Part shown: positions 5,982 to 49,180 of the stretch, one piece after another
How the letters are laid out: every line of letters begins with the position of its first letter
Position numbering within the stretch: the stretch's first letter is position 1
Origin: Guyparkeria hydrothermalis
GTDB taxonomy: Bacteria; Pseudomonadota; Gammaproteobacteria; Halothiobacillales; Halothiobacillaceae
Length of the DNA stretch: 64,000 bases
Direction of reading: 5' to 3'
Assembly: GCF_023555375.1 (NCBI RefSeq)
Contig: NZ_JAJSEE010000002.1
Span: 62,001-126,000, forward strand
Made by a program: the position numbers and the translations under genes
Notes under the pieces: generated by a model
Told to the model about the DNA's origin: nothing
What the model saw: the letters and a program-made list of their open reading frames with translations, nothing else
Database searches by the model: none

Positions 5982-7423
<1,442 letters not shown>

Positions 7424-7459
7424 CCCGGCGAACCTCGCGGCCAGCGTGTTCGGTTGGCA

Positions 7460-8053
7460 TTAGCCGTTCGACCGGAGCTCGCGCAGGCGCTTGAGGTCGG
7501 CCTCGAACTCTTCCGCCAGTGCCTCGCGCTCCGCGCGCACCTCGATCACCGCCTGTTTCATCCGTTCGAGATCACGTGCATACCCCGGGTCGTCGTGCCC
7601 GGCATCGATGTTCGCCTGCATCCGCTGGATCGAGCCTTCCATCTGCGCAATGCGTGCGTCCATCCGCTCGAGGCGCTGATCGCGTGCCTGCTTCAGGTCC
7701 GCCTCGCTGCTGTACAGCGACAGCAGGATGCGGTCGCGCTCCGCCTGGGCGCGGGCCTCGCGCTCGGCGCGCTCCGCGGCCTCTCTTGCCGCCGCCTCGC
7801 GTGCCTTCTCTTCGGCCGTCTTGCGCGGCGCGACCTCGCGGACGACCGCGCCGGTATGCGGGTCGATCACCTGGTAACCGTTGGCGGCCGCGCCGGAGGG
7901 CAGGGTGTCGCTGAATTGCAGATTGCCGTCGCCGTTCACCCAGCGATAGGTGACGTCGGCGGCCCCGGCAACTTGCTGGGCCGCCTGCAAGGCAAGGCCC
8001 GAAAGCAGGGTGAGAGCGAGACCGGCCAGAATGGCGCGATGGCGGACCTGCAT
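7460..8053 (-). CDS. Secreted DUF4124 coiled-coil protein
   Basis: A 197-residue protein with a Sec signal peptide (residues 1-32, cleavage near AGA|ADV). A DUF4124 motif follows (VTYRWVNGDGNLQFSDTLPSG, residues 34-54), then a long charged, alanine-rich coiled coil to the C-terminus (about 78-195, rich in E, R and A). DUF4124 modules occur in periplasmic or envelope proteins of proteobacteria; biochemical function is not established. The gene is convergent with argB with a 36-bp gap and stands alone. It could be a cell-envelope scaffold, which is inference from the architecture only. Confidence 0.75.
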   Translation of the reverse strand: MQVRHRAILAGLALTLLSGLALQAAQQVAGAADVTYRWVNGDGNLQFSDTLPSGAAANGYQVIDPHTGAVVREVAPRKTAEEKAREAAAREAAERAEREARAQAERDRILLSLYSSEADLKQARDQRLERMDARIAQMEGSIQRMQANIDAGHDDPGYARDLERMKQAVIEVRAEREALAEEFEADLKRLRELRSNG

Positions 8054-43350: not shown

Positions 43351-43920
43351 ATGGCGAGCCGCGGTGTGAACAAGGCAATCATCATCGGCAACCTCGGGGT
43401 TGATCCGGACGTGCGCTACCTGCCGTCCGGCGGCCAGGTCACCAACATCCGCGTGGCCACCTCCGAGCAGTGGCGCGACAAGACCACCGGTGAGAACCGC
43501 GAGAACACCGAGTGGCACCGCATCGTCTTCTTCGGCAAGCTCGCCGAGATCGCCGGCGAGTACCTGAAGAAGGGCAGCCAGGTCTACATCGAAGGTCGCC
43601 TGCAGACCCGCAAGTGGCAGGGCCAGGACGGCCAGGACCGCTACACCACCGAGATCGTCGCCAACGAGATGCAGATGCTCGGCGGCCGTCCGGGTGCCGG
43701 TGGCGGCCAGGGCGGCGGCTACGGCGGCGGTCAGGCCAGCCAAGGTGGCCAGGGTGGCTACGGTGGTGGCGGTTACGGCGGTGGTGCCGCGGCCGGTGCC
43801 GGCGCGGGCTACGCTGGCGGCCAGTCCGACTACGGCGCGCCGCCCCCGCCGCCGAGCCAGGACCAGCGCCCGGCCAAGTCGATCGACGACGGCTTCGGCG
43901 AGGACGATATTCCGTTTTAG
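43351..43920 (+). CDS. ssb: Single-stranded DNA-binding protein
   Basis: A 189-residue SSB: OB fold (about residues 1-112, starting [22 protein letters not shown]), a long Gly/Gln/Tyr-rich linker (113-165) and the acidic tip EDDIPF that recruits repair and replication enzymes. ATG at 43351 with GGAG upstream. It is the usual divergent neighbour of uvrA. A strong terminator follows, then the restriction-type island, which marks the probable insertion boundary. Confidence 0.97.
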
Positions 43921-43960
43921 CGGGTGGCCGCTATAAATGGAAACATTGCAAATCGAACTG

Positions 43961-43986
43961 AAGCCAGCGGGACCGCTGGCTTTTTT
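43961..43986 (+). terminator. Terminator of ssb
   Basis: AAGCCAGC pairs with GCTGGCTT around a 6-nt loop, followed by a run of Ts (TTTTTT). It closes the ssb unit just before base composition drops. Confidence 0.9.
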
Positions 43987-44028
43987 CAATACTAGTTTGT
44001 TTCGCTGGCTATTCTAAGGGATTTCTTT

Positions 44029-45387
44029 ATGGATGAAGTTAAATCGCACGCTCACGCATATCCGACGAAAAAGTTCTTCGTGAGGATGATTACGCGAGAC
44101 ATAGATCTAAAGGACTGCATACTCGATCTCATTGACAACAGTGTAGATAACGCATGGGCCGAGAAGGGCGGCCACATCATGAGTTTGCGTGATACAACTG
44201 ATCTCTCGGACTTTGAAATTCATATAAATATTACGAACGACTGTTTCTCGATCAGGGATAATTGCGGTGGAATGACGCTTGATAGTGCTGTCGACCACGC
44301 TTTCAATTTTGGGCGAAAAGAGTTCAGCCCGAATGACAATTATAGTATTGGTGTCTACGGCATTGGGATGAAACGAGCTGTATTCAAAATAGGTAGAGAA
44401 GCCGAAGTAAGGAGCACGTACGATGAGGGTGGGGAAAGGTCGTCGTTTAAAGTCCCCATTAATGTTGACGAGTGGGTTCACGATGATGCACCCCCTTGGG
44501 ATTTCGACATAGAAGAGTCCTCGGATTTGGGTGAAAATGGCGTCGAAATAGTAATCCAAGAACTGACTGAGGAGGCTGAGTCGGAATTTTCCTCACCAGA
44601 GTTTTTGGCTGACCTCAGGTGGGTTATTGAGCGTGACTACACGCTGCACCTGCACAAGGGATTGAATATATTTTTGAACGGTAAGAGGCTGACTGGGTGG
44701 CGGGTCGAGCTTCGCCAGAGCGAAAATTTCCGTCCTATGCGTGCCGAGTACAACGACATCAGTCGCGATAACGAAGTCGTTGTTGAGATGGTGGGGGGCA
44801 TGGTTGCACCTCCTCCGGAGAGCGTGGATCCGGATGAAGATTCGAAAGGGGACCGGTTGTCAGGCTGGTATGTAGCCTGCAATGGACGAATCGTGTTGGC
44901 GGCAGATAAAACCGAGACAACAGGGTGGGGTGCTGAGGGCTTTCCAAGTTGGCACAAACAGTATTCCGGCTTCATCGGTATCGTTTTGTTCTCCGCACAG
45001 AATGCCGCCGCCCTACCACTGACAACGACAAAGAGGAACGTTAATTCGTCCGCAGACCTTTACCGAAGAGCCCGAGCCCGGATGCAAGAAGTTAGCCGGG
45101 CGTGGATTGATTACACGAACCAGCGCAAGCGGGATACCGAATCGGCGCGGCATAATGAAGAGGCCTCAAGAGCCGTTTCGATATACGATATTGCCCCACG
45201 TGAGCAGGTGCAGCTACCAGAGATAGAGAAAAAGCCCGTTGTGCCAATGGCAAATGTCAGCTACTCAGTCCCGAAAACAAAACTAAAAAAGTTGGCTAGG
45301 GAGATGGGCAACGTGACGATGTCCTACCGAGACGTTGGGCAGAAATCATTTGAGTATGCCTATGAAGATTATGTCGGAGAAGATTAA
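44029..45387 (+). CDS. GHKL (MORC/MutL-like) ATPase of a restriction-type island
   Basis: A 452-residue protein with an HSP90/histidine-kinase-type ATPase domain: N-box LIDNSVDNAW (34-43), DNCGGM (77-82), GVYGIGMKRAVFK (108-120) and a probable sensor lysine in TTTKRNVN. Predicted MORC/MutL-like ATPases accompany DNA methylases in prokaryotic defence loci (Iyer, Abhiman and Aravind, 2008). The rest has no familiar domain; the C-terminus (SFEYAYEDYVGED) is acidic. Base composition is much more AT-rich than neighbours, suggesting transfer. The stop shares one base with the next start (TAATG). Confidence 0.82.
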   Translation: MDEVKSHAHAYPTKKFFVRMITRDIDLKDCILDLIDNSVDNAWAEKGGHIMSLRDTTDLSDFEIHINITNDCFSIRDNCGGMTLDSAVDHAFNFGRKEFSPNDNYSIGVYGIGMKRAVFKIGREAEVRSTYDEGGERSSFKVPINVDEWVHDDAPPWDFDIEESSDLGENGVEIVIQELTEEAESEFSSPEFLADLRWVIERDYTLHLHKGLNIFLNGKRLTGWRVELRQSENFRPMRAEYNDISRDNEVVVEMVGGMVAPPPESVDPDEDSKGDRLSGWYVACNGRIVLAADKTETTGWGAEGFPSWHKQYSGFIGIVLFSAQNAAALPLTTTKRNVNSSADLYRRARARMQEVSRAWIDYTNQRKRDTESARHNEEASRAVSIYDIAPREQVQLPEIEKKPVVPMANVSYSVPKTKLKKLAREMGNVTMSYRDVGQKSFEYAYEDYVGED

Positions 45388-46340
45388 TGCCTTCTTTCGA
45401 AAAAGTTAACTATAGTTTGCGACCCAGCAAGTCAATCCAGAGGGGGTTGGTGTTCGAGGGGCTTCGCGCAATAAAAGAACGCCTTGCTTTGGCTGACCCT
45501 GTTTATATTGGGCTTGGTTCGGTTTGGTTCTCTGATTTCCTTATGGCTCACTCGGCTCTCGATGTTTGGGATATGGTGTCCATTGAGTCTGACGAAATCG
45601 GGTTTGAGCGTGCGAAGTTTAACTGCCCTTTTGCGACTGTAAAGGTTAAAAAAGGTGAGGCCGGGGTTGTGATCCAGGATCTAAAAAATGGGGCTGAGTA
45701 CAGCCAAAGGCCGTGGATGGTGTGGTTGGATTATGACTCCGAGTTGGATGAGAGCGTTTGCCAAGACCTGGCCTATCTCAATCGAAATGCGCCGGAAAAT
45801 AGTGTGATTATTTTTACCTTCAATGCTCATGAAGGTAATTATGGAAAGCCAGCTGCTCAGAGGCGCTCCCGGGTAATTGAGCTCCTCGGTCGGGTCGTCT
45901 CGGAGGATGAGCCGCCAGCAAGCTTCAAAAATAAGTACGGTGCTTTTGAGAAAAGGCTTGCAAAAGCTGTTATCGATCACATGATTTCCGACGCGGTTAA
46001 GTGTGGTCGTGAGGGTGGTGCCGTTCCTGCGTTCAATTTAAGATATAAAGATGGCTCCCCTATGGTGACCGTCGGTGGGATTTTGCCGAGCAAGCAGAAT
46101 AGGGCAGCCGCCGAGGAGCTCGTGAAAAGCGAGCATTGGGACTATATTTCCGAGGCACTAATTGCAGCTCCGAACTTGACGTTGCTGGAAGTGGCGCACC
46201 TACAGAAGCTTCTTCCCTCAAGTGCTCCGATCACGAGGCAGGAGGTCCAAACCCTGGGCTTTGATCTTAGTGATGAGCAAGTGCAATCATTCCAGAAGTA
46301 CTACAAATACTTCCCGTTGTTCGCGCAGATTTCCGCATGA
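45387..46340 (+). CDS. Rossmann/methyltransferase-like protein of the island
   Basis: A 317-residue protein I cannot assign to a named family. The N-terminal half looks like a class I methyltransferase core: YIGLGS (40-45) where motif I would be, an acidic SIESDE (65-70) at the end of strand 2 and WLDYDSEL (113-120) near motif IV. The remainder is helical. It might methylate DNA or protein, or bind SAM as a sensor. It is translationally coupled to the ATPase before and the cytosine methyltransferase after (ATGA overlap), so it is an integral part of the system. AT-rich codons. Confidence 0.6.
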   Translation: MPSFEKVNYSLRPSKSIQRGLVFEGLRAIKERLALADPVYIGLGSVWFSDFLMAHSALDVWDMVSIESDEIGFERAKFNCPFATVKVKKGEAGVVIQDLKNGAEYSQRPWMVWLDYDSELDESVCQDLAYLNRNAPENSVIIFTFNAHEGNYGKPAAQRRSRVIELLGRVVSEDEPPASFKNKYGAFEKRLAKAVIDHMISDAVKCGREGGAVPAFNLRYKDGSPMVTVGGILPSKQNRAAAEELVKSEHWDYISEALIAAPNLTLLEVAHLQKLLPSSAPITRQEVQTLGFDLSDEQVQSFQKYYKYFPLFAQISA

Positions 46341-47422
46341 CCGGACCAGCTCTTCCTCCGCTGATCGAGTTGTTTTCAGGGACCGGCGGGTTTTCGTTAG
46401 GTGCTCATAAGGCTGGATTTAGGGTCGCCGCGGCTTTCGACAATGACCCGGTTCTTACCTCTTCGTATCGGCGCAACTTCCCTGACACGCAGTTTTTCTT
46501 GGAGGATGTGTCGTCCTTGACCGCCGCTGCCCTTAGGGAGTCCGTTGGCGGTTCACGTTTCGGTCTTTTTGGCGGGCCTCCTTGTCAAGGATTTAGTGAT
46601 ATTGGCAAGCGAGACCCAAACGACCCTCGTCGAGACTTGCTCGTCCATTTCTTCCGTTTGGTTTCCGAGGCTCGGCCAGTCTTCTTTGTAATGGAAAACG
46701 TGCGAGGTTTGGGAAACGCTGATTCCATAGAGGTGCTCGAATCTGCGATGGGTCTTGTTTCTGATCGGTACGCGCTACACGGGCCGGTCATTTTGGACGC
46801 GTCCGATTTCGGTGCAGCAACCAAGAGACCGAGGCTCTTTGTGATAGGGGTTCACAGAGACTTCGGGGACGCGGTGACCGCAGAAGATATAGAGTCTCAA
46901 AAAAGGCCATCAAAGACTGTTCGGGACGCAATTGCCGACCTCGTCGGTGCCGAGCGCGTGGAGGATTGTGGGGGCTTCGATGTTTGGGAGGTTCCGGAGG
47001 TTGTTGCTCGGTCGGAATATGCGAGTTCGTTGTCGCGCTTGGATAGACGATTCACGGGGCACCTTAGGACGAGGCACACTAGTGCGGTTGTCGACCGGTT
47101 CAAAGCCCTTTCTCAAGGTGAGCTTGACAAGGTGGGCAGACATCCTCGGCTTGCTTGGAGCGGATTGTGTCCAACGTTGAGAGCGGGTACCGGGGCTGAT
47201 CGCGGGTCCTATCAATCCGTAAGGCCTATTCACCCGGAAGAGCCGAGGGTGATTACGGTGCGCGAGGCGGCGCGGCTGCAAGGTTTTCCGGACGCACACC
47301 TGTTCCACCCTACGATTTGGCATTCTTTTCGAATGATCGGGAACAGCGTATCTCCGCTTATGTCCGAGGCAATCTTTAGGGCGGTTGCCTCGAAGCTGCA
47401 AGACTACGCTGAGGCGTCATGA
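46337..47422 (+). CDS. Cytosine-5 DNA methyltransferase
   Basis: A 361-residue Dcm-type enzyme. Motif I LFSGTGGFS (12-20), motif IV GGPPCQGFS with catalytic Cys83, motif VI ENVRG (Glu120), motif VIII-type KRPRLFVIG and motif X GNSVSP are present. The target-recognition region (about 215-290) is short and specificity cannot be read. It lies downstream of the ATPase and Rossmann genes and 12 bp before a Vsr nuclease gene. Whether it protects the host from a cognate nuclease in the island is not known: no classical endonuclease gene is present. Confidence 0.93.
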   Translation: MTGPALPPLIELFSGTGGFSLGAHKAGFRVAAAFDNDPVLTSSYRRNFPDTQFFLEDVSSLTAAALRESVGGSRFGLFGGPPCQGFSDIGKRDPNDPRRDLLVHFFRLVSEARPVFFVMENVRGLGNADSIEVLESAMGLVSDRYALHGPVILDASDFGAATKRPRLFVIGVHRDFGDAVTAEDIESQKRPSKTVRDAIADLVGAERVEDCGGFDVWEVPEVVARSEYASSLSRLDRRFTGHLRTRHTSAVVDRFKALSQGELDKVGRHPRLAWSGLCPTLRAGTGADRGSYQSVRPIHPEEPRVITVREAARLQGFPDAHLFHPTIWHSFRMIGNSVSPLMSEAIFRAVASKLQDYAEAS

Positions 47423-47434
47423 GGGCGGCGGAGC

Positions 47435-47845
47435 TTGGACCGGCTAACACCTGATCGACGCTCGTGGCTGATGTCCCGTGTGCCGTCCACGAATACGTCT
47501 GCCGAGATTCGGGTCAGAAAGGCGGCTCATTCGTTGGGCTTGCGCTTCCGGTTGCATCGCAAAGATCTGCCCGGCTCGCCGGATTTGGTCTTTCCGAAGC
47601 ATCATGTGGTGCTTTTTGTGCACGGTTGCTTTTGGCACAGGCATCCGGGATGCGGGAAGACCAGCACGCCGAAGTCCCGGGTGGAATACTGGAAGGAAAA
47701 ATTCCGTTCGAACGTGGAGCGTGATCGCCGCGTCGCGGGAGAGTTAGAGAGCTTGGGTTGGCGAGTCGAGGTTGTCTGGGAGTGCGAAACTAAGGATCGA
47801 GCTGTTTTGCTCGCAAAATTGCGTGACATTTTTGGCTTGAGGTGA
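47435..47845 (+). CDS. vsr: Vsr-type very-short-patch mismatch endonuclease
   Basis: A 136-residue Vsr nuclease. Key segments are LPGSPDLVFPKH (the catalytic Asp50 region), FVHGCFWHRHPGC with zinc/active-site histidines, NVERDRRVAGELESLGWRV and VWECE. Vsr normally nicks T:G mismatches arising from deaminated 5-methylcytosine and is paired with a cytosine methylase, as here. In this setting it could also supply the only cutting activity of the island. TTG start at 47435, after GGCGGAG; a 136-residue product fits the family. Confidence 0.9.
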   Translation: MDRLTPDRRSWLMSRVPSTNTSAEIRVRKAAHSLGLRFRLHRKDLPGSPDLVFPKHHVVLFVHGCFWHRHPGCGKTSTPKSRVEYWKEKFRSNVERDRRVAGELESLGWRVEVVWECETKDRAVLLAKLRDIFGLR

Positions 47846-47936
47846 ATTTTGCGATTTAGTCGACGAGGATCTTTGAATAGCCCCGACTTTCTTAGACACC
47901 TCAAGAGCCTCACACTGAGGGTTCCGAGGAGGTGCC

Positions 47937-48215
47937 ATGAGCAGTCGACGTTATCCAGACGAATTCAAGGTCGAGGCGGTCAAGCAGGTGACCGAACGAG
48001 GCCGCCGGGTGAAGGAGGTGGCCGAGCATCTCGGCGTCTCCCAGCACAGTCTTTATGCATGGATCCGGCGTTATCAGCAGCCGGATGAAGAAAGGCAGAA
48101 GCAGCAGGCCCAAGCCGACGAGATCCGCCGCCTGAATGCGCAACTCCGGGAAGTCACCGAGGAGCGCGACATATTAAAAAAAGCGGCCGCGTACTTCGCC
48201 AAGCAGTCCGGGTGA
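47937..48215 (+). CDS. IS3-family OrfA (helix-turn-helix)
   Basis: A 92-residue transposase N-terminal protein with a helix-turn-helix (YPDEFKVEAVKQVTERGRRVKEVAEHLGVS) and a leucine-zipper-like coiled coil (residues 55-85). It ends with ...DILKKAAAYFAKQSG. Seven A residues at 48176-48182 form a slippery site; a -1 shift there would join OrfA to OrfB, the usual way IS3 elements make the fused transposase. Confidence 0.95.
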   Translation: MSSRRYPDEFKVEAVKQVTERGRRVKEVAEHLGVSQHSLYAWIRRYQQPDEERQKQQAQADEIRRLNAQLREVTEERDILKKAAAYFAKQSG

Positions 48216-49087
48216 GGTACGCGTTCATCAAGGACCATGAACGCGCCCATCCGGTGCGCCGCCTTTGCCGTTTGATGGATGTCCATCCGAGTGGTTACTA
48301 CGCCTGGAAGCGGCAGCCGGATTCCCGGCGACAGCGGGAAGACCGACGGCTGCTGGGCGTGATCAAGCAATCCTGGCTGGAGAGCGGTGGCGTCTACGGC
48401 TATCGCAAGATCCACCACGACCTGCGGGACCTGGGCGAGCGTTGCGGTAAGCACCGTGTGGCCCGGCTGATGCGTGGAGAAGGATTGAAGTCACAGACCG
48501 GCTACCGGCGCCGCCCCGGTTTTCGTGGTGGACGCCCTGCCGTCGTGGCGCCGAATCACTTGCAGCAGCAGTTCGACGTTTCCGCCCCCAACCAGGCCTG
48601 GGTGACGGACATCACCTACATCCGCACCCACGAGGGATGGCTGTACCTGTCGGTGGTCCTGGACCTGTTCTCCCGGCAAGTCATCGGCTGGTCCATGCGC
48701 CCACGCATGGACCGGGAGCTGGCCATGAATGCGTTAATGATGGCCGTGTGGCGACGCCAGCCTGATGGCCCGGTCGTCGTCCACTCCGACCAGGGAAGCC
48801 AATTCAGCAGTCACGACTGGCAGGACTTCCTCAAGGCCCACGGTCTCGTGGGCAGCATGAGCCGGCGGGGCAACTGTCACGACAACGCCGTGGCGGAGAG
48901 CTTCTTCCAGTTGCTCAAGCGTGAGCGAATCCGACGCCGGATCTATCCGGACCGGGAAGAAGCCCGTCGAGACGTGTTCGATTACATCGAGCTCTTCTAC
49001 AACGCCCGCCGCCGTCATGGCTACATCGGCGGGCTGTCTCCGGTCGAGTTCGAGAAGCGCTATTTCAACCGGCTCGCGAGTGTCTAG
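48212..49087 (+). CDS. IS3-family OrfB transposase (DDE integrase core)
   Basis: A 291-residue rve-type integrase. The catalytic triad is present: Asp in VTDITYI, Asp in VVHSDQGSQFSS, Glu in AVAESFFQLLKRE. Its frame is -1 relative to OrfA and overlaps it by 4 bp. Together with OrfA it mobilises the IS; the product ends at 49087, 18 bp before the right terminal repeat closes. Confidence 0.96.
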   Translation: MRYAFIKDHERAHPVRRLCRLMDVHPSGYYAWKRQPDSRRQREDRRLLGVIKQSWLESGGVYGYRKIHHDLRDLGERCGKHRVARLMRGEGLKSQTGYRRRPGFRGGRPAVVAPNHLQQQFDVSAPNQAWVTDITYIRTHEGWLYLSVVLDLFSRQVIGWSMRPRMDRELAMNALMMAVWRRQPDGPVVVHSDQGSQFSSHDWQDFLKAHGLVGSMSRRGNCHDNAVAESFFQLLKRERIRRRIYPDREEARRDVFDYIELFYNARRRHGYIGGLSPVEFEKRYFNRLASV

Positions 49088-49150
49088 AAAACCGGGGGCG
49101 ATTCACTTGTCTCGATGGGCGAGGCGGGGACTGTTGTTAAAGGTCGCACG

Positions 49151-49180
49151 AAAACCCCGCTCGTTTTGAGCGGGGTTTTT
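49151..49180. terminator. Bidirectional terminator before the CstB-like gene
   Basis: A 12-bp stem (AAAACCCCGCTC / GAGCGGGGTTTT) with a 5-nt loop, T-runs on the right and, on the other strand, on the left. It serves the CstB-like gene from the right and anything arriving from the left. Confidence 0.88.

Follow-up and report, generated by a model that had tools for sequence, protein, structure and literature searches.

What do the four coupled genes do that form an island at positions 44029–47845 of the window, the whole 64,000-nt stretch of Guyparkeria hydrothermalis DNA that was analyzed, and which of their products does it? The genes follow one another on the plus strand and encode a GHKL ATPase, a protein with a Rossmann-like fold, a C5-cytosine DNA methyltransferase (C5-methylase) and a Vsr mismatch endonuclease. 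A sequence-only reading of the island had regarded it as a possible novel defence system, in which the second protein was a fixed partner and Vsr or the ATPase complex might cut the DNA. A role in restriction was predicted for prokaryotic relatives of the MORC ATPases in 2008 (PMC2292703, which is cited from excerpts, like PMC3710099, PMC8011034, PMC8277788, PMC11878078 and PMC12137116), and the combination of MORC ATPase, methylase and Vsr has been known since that prediction. What appears to be new is the pairing of the ATPase with the second protein, which belongs to the Pfam family PF20553. The pair is undescribed in the literature searched, which comprised titles and the beginnings of abstracts, with subscription journals, preprints and the newest defence catalogues mostly outside, and neither "Methyltransf_35" nor "PF20553" is mentioned in the full-text papers searched. 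We propose, with a probability of about 50%, that the island is a restriction-modification (RM)-like immune module, in which the methylase would mark self, the MORC ATPase would sense unmarked DNA, the PF20553 protein would be the effector and Vsr would serve in repair.

Relatives of the island were sought in species genomes, IMG/VR, GenBank phages and plasmids, and models built for this analysis served to label their genes. When genome contigs were scanned with the window protein alone, one relative was found; scans of viral contigs with alignments were far more productive. Clustering of the 99 GHKL genes, including that of the window, at 80% identity resulted in 55 clusters, 45 with short and 10 with long ATPases. 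A PF20553 gene was found downstream and on the same strand in 44 of the 45 short clusters, and the remaining one (L092) is truncated at a contig end. Beside the long ATPases it never occurred (0 of 10). The GHKL and PF20553 genes overlap or lie at most 9 bases apart, save in L009 and L011, which have interrupted frames. A C5-methylase was present within 4.5 kb in 39 of the 45 short clusters. The fixed partnership proposed by the sequence-only reading was thus borne out, and the co-occurrence of the genes elsewhere, on which it had made its proposal depend, was also observed. A search of viral contigs for which GHKL was the sole query, and in which 80 of 87 relatives were used, revealed PF20553 at 69 of the 80 loci, while 10 belonged to the long class and one was cut; after clustering, the respective numbers were 34, 10 and 1 (n = 45). 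The use of GHKL alone limits circularity, though the query alignment itself was derived from PF20553-linked loci.

Distances were compared for the 37 clusters that have all three genes (L009, L011, L080 and L083 were left out). The correlation was high for GHKL and PF20553 (r 0.892) and lower for GHKL and methylase (r 0.499). Both values beat 999 permutations (p 0.001), but relatedness alone yields some correlation, and it is therefore the contrast between the two that matters. For the 260 close pairs the rank correlations were nearer to one another (0.729 versus 0.639). The methylase was found in four different arrangements (17, 10, 7 and 3). Taken together, the ATPase and the PF20553 protein form a nearly inseparable pair, and their methylase partner varies.

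Among the six short clusters that have no methylase within this distance, L074 and L092 are truncated where their contigs end, and the methylase of L009 lies further away. In L009 (3671–8816, psymA of S. meliloti KH46), the GHKL and PF20553 frames are about 3 kb apart with other open reading frames (ORFs) between them, and the methylase and Vsr genes follow further along on the opposite strand. In L008 (6576–8996), on a Microvirga plasmid, the pair is situated inside DISARM, in the order drmD, MmeI-type gene, pair, drmA, DUF1998 and drmC; this is the only case of the pair within DISARM, and drmA, drmB and drmC are absent from the window island. In L026 (8780–16352), the pair faces genes for an SNF2 helicase, an NOV_C protein and an N6/N4 methylase. 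In L011 (8212–14961), a frame-broken pair comes after DndD/PbeC-like pieces and the gene of a mad8/DndE-like ATPase. These partnerships with DISARM, with SNF2 helicase plus N6/N4 methylase and with Dnd-like genes were seen at one locus each. A further locus outside the 45-cluster counts (L119, genome G798) has a methylase, GHKL and PF20553, and no Vsr.

The second protein, which had been left unassigned, matches PF20553 (Methyltransf_35, in Pfam a "putative O-methyltransferase") with 294.1 bits versus a gathering cut-off of 27 (E 1.7e-87). The predicted structure (pLDDT 92.2, pTM 0.91) has a class I methyltransferase fold. The closest solved fold is that of the tRNA methyltransferase Trm1 (3axs; Z 16.2, 3.7 Å, 221 residues), followed by other Trm1 entries (Z 15.3, 14.9 and 14.9), METTL16 (14.2) and the rest at 13.5 or below. 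Foldseek likewise placed Trm1 at the top rank (E 3.2e-7). The window protein was aligned with 43 of 45 deduplicated proteins (left out were L042, with a split frame, and L080, which is cut). Near-invariant residues are Y9, R12, K15, R19, the GxG loop, D50, E67, R75 and N79, and further on W113, D115, T144, Y220, D222, M226 and E268. E67 is present in 40 of the 44 proteins, with Asp in the other four, and D115 in 43. Because the residues of the cofactor site look intact, the PF20553 protein is probably an enzyme. "O-methyltransferase" is only a name, taken over from Pfam. A comparison of PF20553 with the PF01596 and RsmD family profiles gave no signal, and the control comparison of PF01596 with RsmD was equally silent. 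The Trm1 profile had matches in 30 of 299 genomes, all to a part of the profile and two of them over the cut-off; these are probably generic methyltransferases. The viral predicted structures were mostly methyltransferase folds and are uninformative on the substrate. No PADLOC 2.0 model matched any of three PF20553 proteins (window, L041 and L024), and PHROGs labels both core families, GHKL and PF20553, with "unknown function".

The ATPase matches HATPase_c_3 (PF13589) with 36.9 bits versus a cut-off of 25. For its AlphaFold model (pLDDT 88.6), the best solved fold is MORC3 (5ix2; Z 23.4, 3.3 Å, 299 residues, model residues 11–367), followed by MORC4 (Z 23.1, model residues 11–387) and Hsp90 (Z 22.3). 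The modelled fold alone would barely separate MORC from Hsp90, and it is the S5 motif that decides. The published motif of the MORC S5 domain, GhXhhpXXRhl (PMC2292703), reads GWYVACNGRIV in the window ATPase (residue 279). It is present in 35 of 36 short GHKLs, the window included and L072 being the one without it, and in all 10 long ones, compared to a background of 8 in 215 other ORFs of at least 350 amino acids (aa) in all six frames. In the alignment of the short GHKLs, which comprised the window and 35 of 53 deduplicated proteins (left out were the 10 long ones, L092, L074 and six near-duplicates), the ATP-site residues N37, D77–G81, G111–K115 and K335 are invariant or nearly so. The general-base position of GHKL motif I (window residue 33) is Asp in 36 of 36 short and 10 of 10 long proteins. 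Other GHKL ATPases have Glu at this position. Judged by its motifs and its predicted fold, the ATPase is MORC-like and has the features of the prokaryotic MORC family. The link to methylases and Vsr, which the sequence-only reading had drawn from knowledge of MORC/MutL-like ATPases, was supported by the motif, the MORC3 fold, the co-occurrence counts and the earlier prediction (PMC2292703). No nuclease domain was detected by Pfam in this ATPase of the window, the last roughly 50 residues of which lie outside the fold matches. The similarity to MzaB (NF041932) is weak and lies in the GHKL domain (E 0.0019, 16.6 bits, cut-off 850), and none of the other MZA genes is among the four of the island. 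Five short GHKLs were scanned with PADLOC and had weak matches or none, the best one being to MzaB (L045, E 4.1e-4).

The ten long clusters form a sister class with ATPases of 571–631 aa. All ten have a C5-methylase. In all six scanned, the C-terminus matches the C-terminal part of the PADLOC model PD-Lambda-5_A, with E values from 1.3e-21 (L103) to 4e-4 (L096); neither the window ATPase nor the PF20553 protein matches this model at E up to 1. PD-lambda-5 is prophage-borne and has been described as a compacted "RM+Abi" system, which affected all phages of a panel but one (PMC9519451). In the island, PF20553 occupies the place of the PD-Lambda-5_A-like domain of the long class. Because the two alternate, they may well do the same job, which suggests that PF20553 is an effector.

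The methylase of the island matches PF00145 (DNA_methylase) with 179.7 bits versus a cut-off of 22 and TIGR00675 (dcm) with 138.9 bits, also above its cut-off, and is the sole PF00145 match in the genome. By eye, it contains the motifs PCQ, ENV and GNSVSP. The Vsr protein scores as a canonical one (TIGR00632, 140.8 bits versus a curated cut-off of 97.85; PF03852, 98 bits versus 27). A Vsr gene was detected within 4.5 kb in 12 of the 45 short clusters, and at 10 of the 12 loci with Vsr and methylase the two genes are on the same strand and adjoining (overlapping or separated by at most 32 bp). Exceptions are L025, with Vsr 5′ of the ATPase gene, and L100 of the long class, with Vsr 3′ of it. 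Because Vsr is patchy, usually resides beside the methylase and has a canonical score, it is most simply understood as a repair companion of 5-methylcytosine and would not be a general part of the module. Vsr was therefore rejected as the nuclease of the system, and the earlier suggestion that it does the cutting was not upheld. In the closest relative by ATPase identity (L024, 59%), a 260-aa gene (6791–7573) lies directly 3′ of Vsr; it is absent from the window and has no Pfam or PADLOC match.

The absence of a classical endonuclease, which had been read from the island itself, was extended to the relatives. Clusters of the 422 ORFs (at least 80 aa, within 3.5 kb) around 54 loci were inspected by eye, and no recurrent nuclease was found; a hidden nuclease gene recurring beside the pair was thus rejected. 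The neighbour clusters present at three or more loci look like genes of phages (for repressors, integrases, terminases, portals, capsids and tails), apart from a few doubtful ORFs. Families missing from the VIA-align lists were not taken as excluded.

Copies of the module are found in other bacteria and phages. Escherichia coli EC77 and EC05 carry GHKL (WP_021517196), PF20553 (WP_021517197) and methylase (WP_021517198) genes flanked by those for the P2-family portal and the replication endonuclease, the position of four tested defence systems (PMC9519451). This version was present in 2 of 5426 E. coli genomes by megablast, which diverged copies could escape. The filamentous Pseudomonas phage PfAC20 (PP058144) has GHKL, PF20553 and methylase in the same order; in contrast to the window island, Vsr was not found there by the model built here. 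According to the excerpt, the authors of the PfAC20 study count the methylase only, which they assign to an incomplete system (PMC11878078).

How the island would work can be sketched as follows. The C5-methylase would mark the host DNA. The MORC ATPase would close as an ATP-driven clamp on unmarked, i.e., phage, DNA, and closure would activate the PF20553 protein, the presumed effector, so that the infection stops. The effector might methylate RNA and thereby halt the infected cell, rather than cut DNA, and Vsr would repair the T:G mismatches that arise from 5-methylcytosine. The sensing step, the activation step and the choice of RNA as target are all inferred. The several parts of this proposal deserve different degrees of trust. 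An anti-phage role is predicted with good confidence, and the ATPase and the PF20553 protein, not Vsr, probably are the active half. That RNA is the target is a tentative idea, with odds well below even. An RNA-methylating, cell-stopping effector is favoured because the nearest fold is Trm1, the sister class shares a domain with the "RM+Abi" system PD-lambda-5, and related paraMORC ATPases in RM loci have been reported with C-terminally fused HEPN RNase domains (PMC3710099). In its most specific form, a MORC clamp on unmarked DNA would switch on a Trm1-like methyltransferase that poisons tRNA or other RNA, and the self-mark would come from exchangeable DNA-modification systems, namely C5-methylation, DISARM and, possibly, phosphorothioation; this form is speculative and rather unlikely.

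Several results weigh against the proposed reading, in particular against RNA as the target. The lead of Trm1 over generic methyltransferase folds is modest (Z 16.2 versus about 13), and the window protein has no match to the Pfam family TRM (PF02005) at E up to 1. The Trm1 motif DPFG reads LDYD or LDYT in PF20553 proteins. A link to Trm1 did not emerge from sequence profiles either, as a profile search of PF20553 against solved structures gave three matches only, all unrelated (best E 0.14). HEPN was not detected by Pfam in the C-terminus of the long class. VcSduA, the nearest tested GHKL defence protein, restricts directly via its nuclease and not by suicide (PMC12137116), which favours DNA as the target. 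L010 (8374–10800), a single case, has an HNH_2 nuclease gene immediately 5′ of GHKL and in the same orientation, and the Pfam and PADLOC scans of neighbours covered L007, L010, L011, L012, L024 and L026, so that nucleases of single loci elsewhere could be missed. PF20553 is also rare (3 of 369, 5 of 398, 3 of 91 and 2 of 299 genomes in overlapping samples, the genome analyzed here being counted in the first two). Carriage in IMG/VR is no independent evidence on function, as this collection holds viruses only. No phage test of the GHKL-PF20553 module is known, and a test of any MORC-motif protein did not turn up in the literature searched.

One alternative, in line with strict pairing to a DNA-handling ATPase and with the lack of a recurrent nuclease, is that PF20553 is a DNA reader, which binds or flips sites and reports their marks to the MORC ATPase, and that the ATPase blocks or compacts foreign DNA uncut. 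Methyltransferase folds can bind DNA bases, and a MORC protein has been described to entrap and condense DNA (PMC8277788). However, the SAM (S-adenosylmethionine)-site residues are kept, beyond what a reader needs, and the pair is also associated with other modification chemistries (one locus each), which would be hard for a site-specific reader. We regard this alternative as unlikely; were it true, the way in which MORC proteins sense methylation would become easier to understand.

An ordinary type II-like restriction system, with Vsr alone or together with the ATPase as nuclease, is very improbable. Vsr does have a restriction-enzyme fold, and MORC and Vsr genes co-occur (PMC2292703), but 33 of the 45 short clusters, a few of them cut by contig ends, lack Vsr within 4.5 kb, and both its place beside the methylase and its canonical score point to repair. 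The island includes a DNA methyltransferase, as type II RM systems do; apart from Vsr, a dedicated restriction endonuclease was not detected among its four proteins. Many copies of the module reside in viral contigs, and methylases are common phage genes, so that the island could also be a cassette without any role in immunity, in which the ATPase and two methyltransferases tune gene expression or prophage DNA in epigenetic or lysogeny control. This is improbable, as the module is also found in the chromosome at a site without phage genes (the window) and inside DISARM, has a sister class with a domain known from a tested defence system, and occupies the P2 defence hotspot in E. coli.

Known systems resemble the island in part. 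The MORC RM neighbourhoods share with it the MORC-motif GHKL ATPase, the C5-methylase and Vsr; about 70% of them have an SF-II helicase, a helicase-free minority is reported, and a PF20553 partner is not mentioned in the excerpt of that paper (PMC2292703). VcSduA (GHKL-Shedu/paraMORC3) is a tested GHKL-gated anti-phage protein, the GHKL domain of which is required for defence (the E27A mutant is inactive), but, according to the excerpt, it is a single protein with a C-terminal PD-(D/E)XK nuclease and without methylase or PF20553 (PMC12137116). The paraMORC-HEPN (Ymh) fusions have the logic of a GHKL switch with a suicidal effector beside a DNA methylase in common with the proposed reading, but their effector is fused, whereas the island has a separate methyltransferase-fold protein (PMC3710099). 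The HEF_HK/Response_reg_2 systems consist of a GHKL protein, a Rossmann-like partner, a C5-methylase and, frequently, Vsr, as does the island (PMC8011034). The window proteins have no match to the respective profiles PF19191 and PF19192 at E up to 1, and a scan for Response_reg_2 found matches in 2 of 185 genomes.

In plants and animals, MORC ATPases act in gene silencing. The module isolates what a MORC engine drives, a methyltransferase-fold partner here and a domain of a tested defence system in the sister loci, and it offers a small three-gene version in E. coli that is open to immediate testing. Should PF20553 indeed be an effector that methylates RNA, it would represent an antiviral weapon of a new kind.

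The layout of the island agrees exactly with the sequence-only description of four coupled, AT-rich genes between the terminator of ssb and an insertion sequence (IS). The ATPase and PF20553 genes are coupled via TAATG, the PF20553 and methylase genes via ATGA, and the methylase and Vsr genes are separated by 12 bp. The GC content is 0.49–0.57 in windows within the four genes, 0.58–0.66 in windows extending over the IS and 0.64–0.73 outside. The upstream neighbour is ssb (PF00436). The coordinates of the features are compiled in the table.

Features of the island and its surroundings, and loci of the sister class
Feature	Position	Strand	Basis
MORC-type GHKL ATPase, 452 aa (GHKL domain, S5 domain, ~60-aa C-terminal extension)	44029..45387	+	
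Methyltransf_35 (PF20553) protein, 317 aa, class I SAM-methyltransferase fold, fixed partner, proposed effector	45387..46340	+	
C5-cytosine DNA methyltransferase, 361 aa, proposed self-marking enzyme	46337..47422	+	
Vsr mismatch endonuclease, 136 aa, TTG start, proposed repair accessory of the methylase	47435..47845	+	
Hairpin and T run 3′ of ssb, upstream boundary	~43963..43986	+	read from sequence
IS3-type transposase orfA/orfB, downstream neighbour, outside the system	47937..49087	+	HTH_Tnp_1, rve
Stretch missing from two congeners, IS included	43920..49150	.	congener comparison
Long-class loci L091, L093, L094, L096, L097, L098, L100, L103, L104, L106			

Comparison with three congeners showed that the island is an insertion at the ssb site. 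Two of the three have the same site without the island, and in these (G158 and G363) the end of ssb (window 43916–43919) joins window position 49151 over only 80 and 73 bp, respectively. The third congener (G269; L118, 5005–9252) contains a different insert, which encodes a HATPase_c_3 protein (642 aa), a C5-methylase (359 aa) and a protein of 408 aa that neither Pfam nor PADLOC matched. Because G269 holds another set there, the ssb site has acquired sets of GHKL and methylase genes on at least two occasions and behaves as a hotspot for such systems. The IS3-type element next to the island spans 47880–49110 and has a second copy of 94% identity in the genome (G000, C1:335147–336373).

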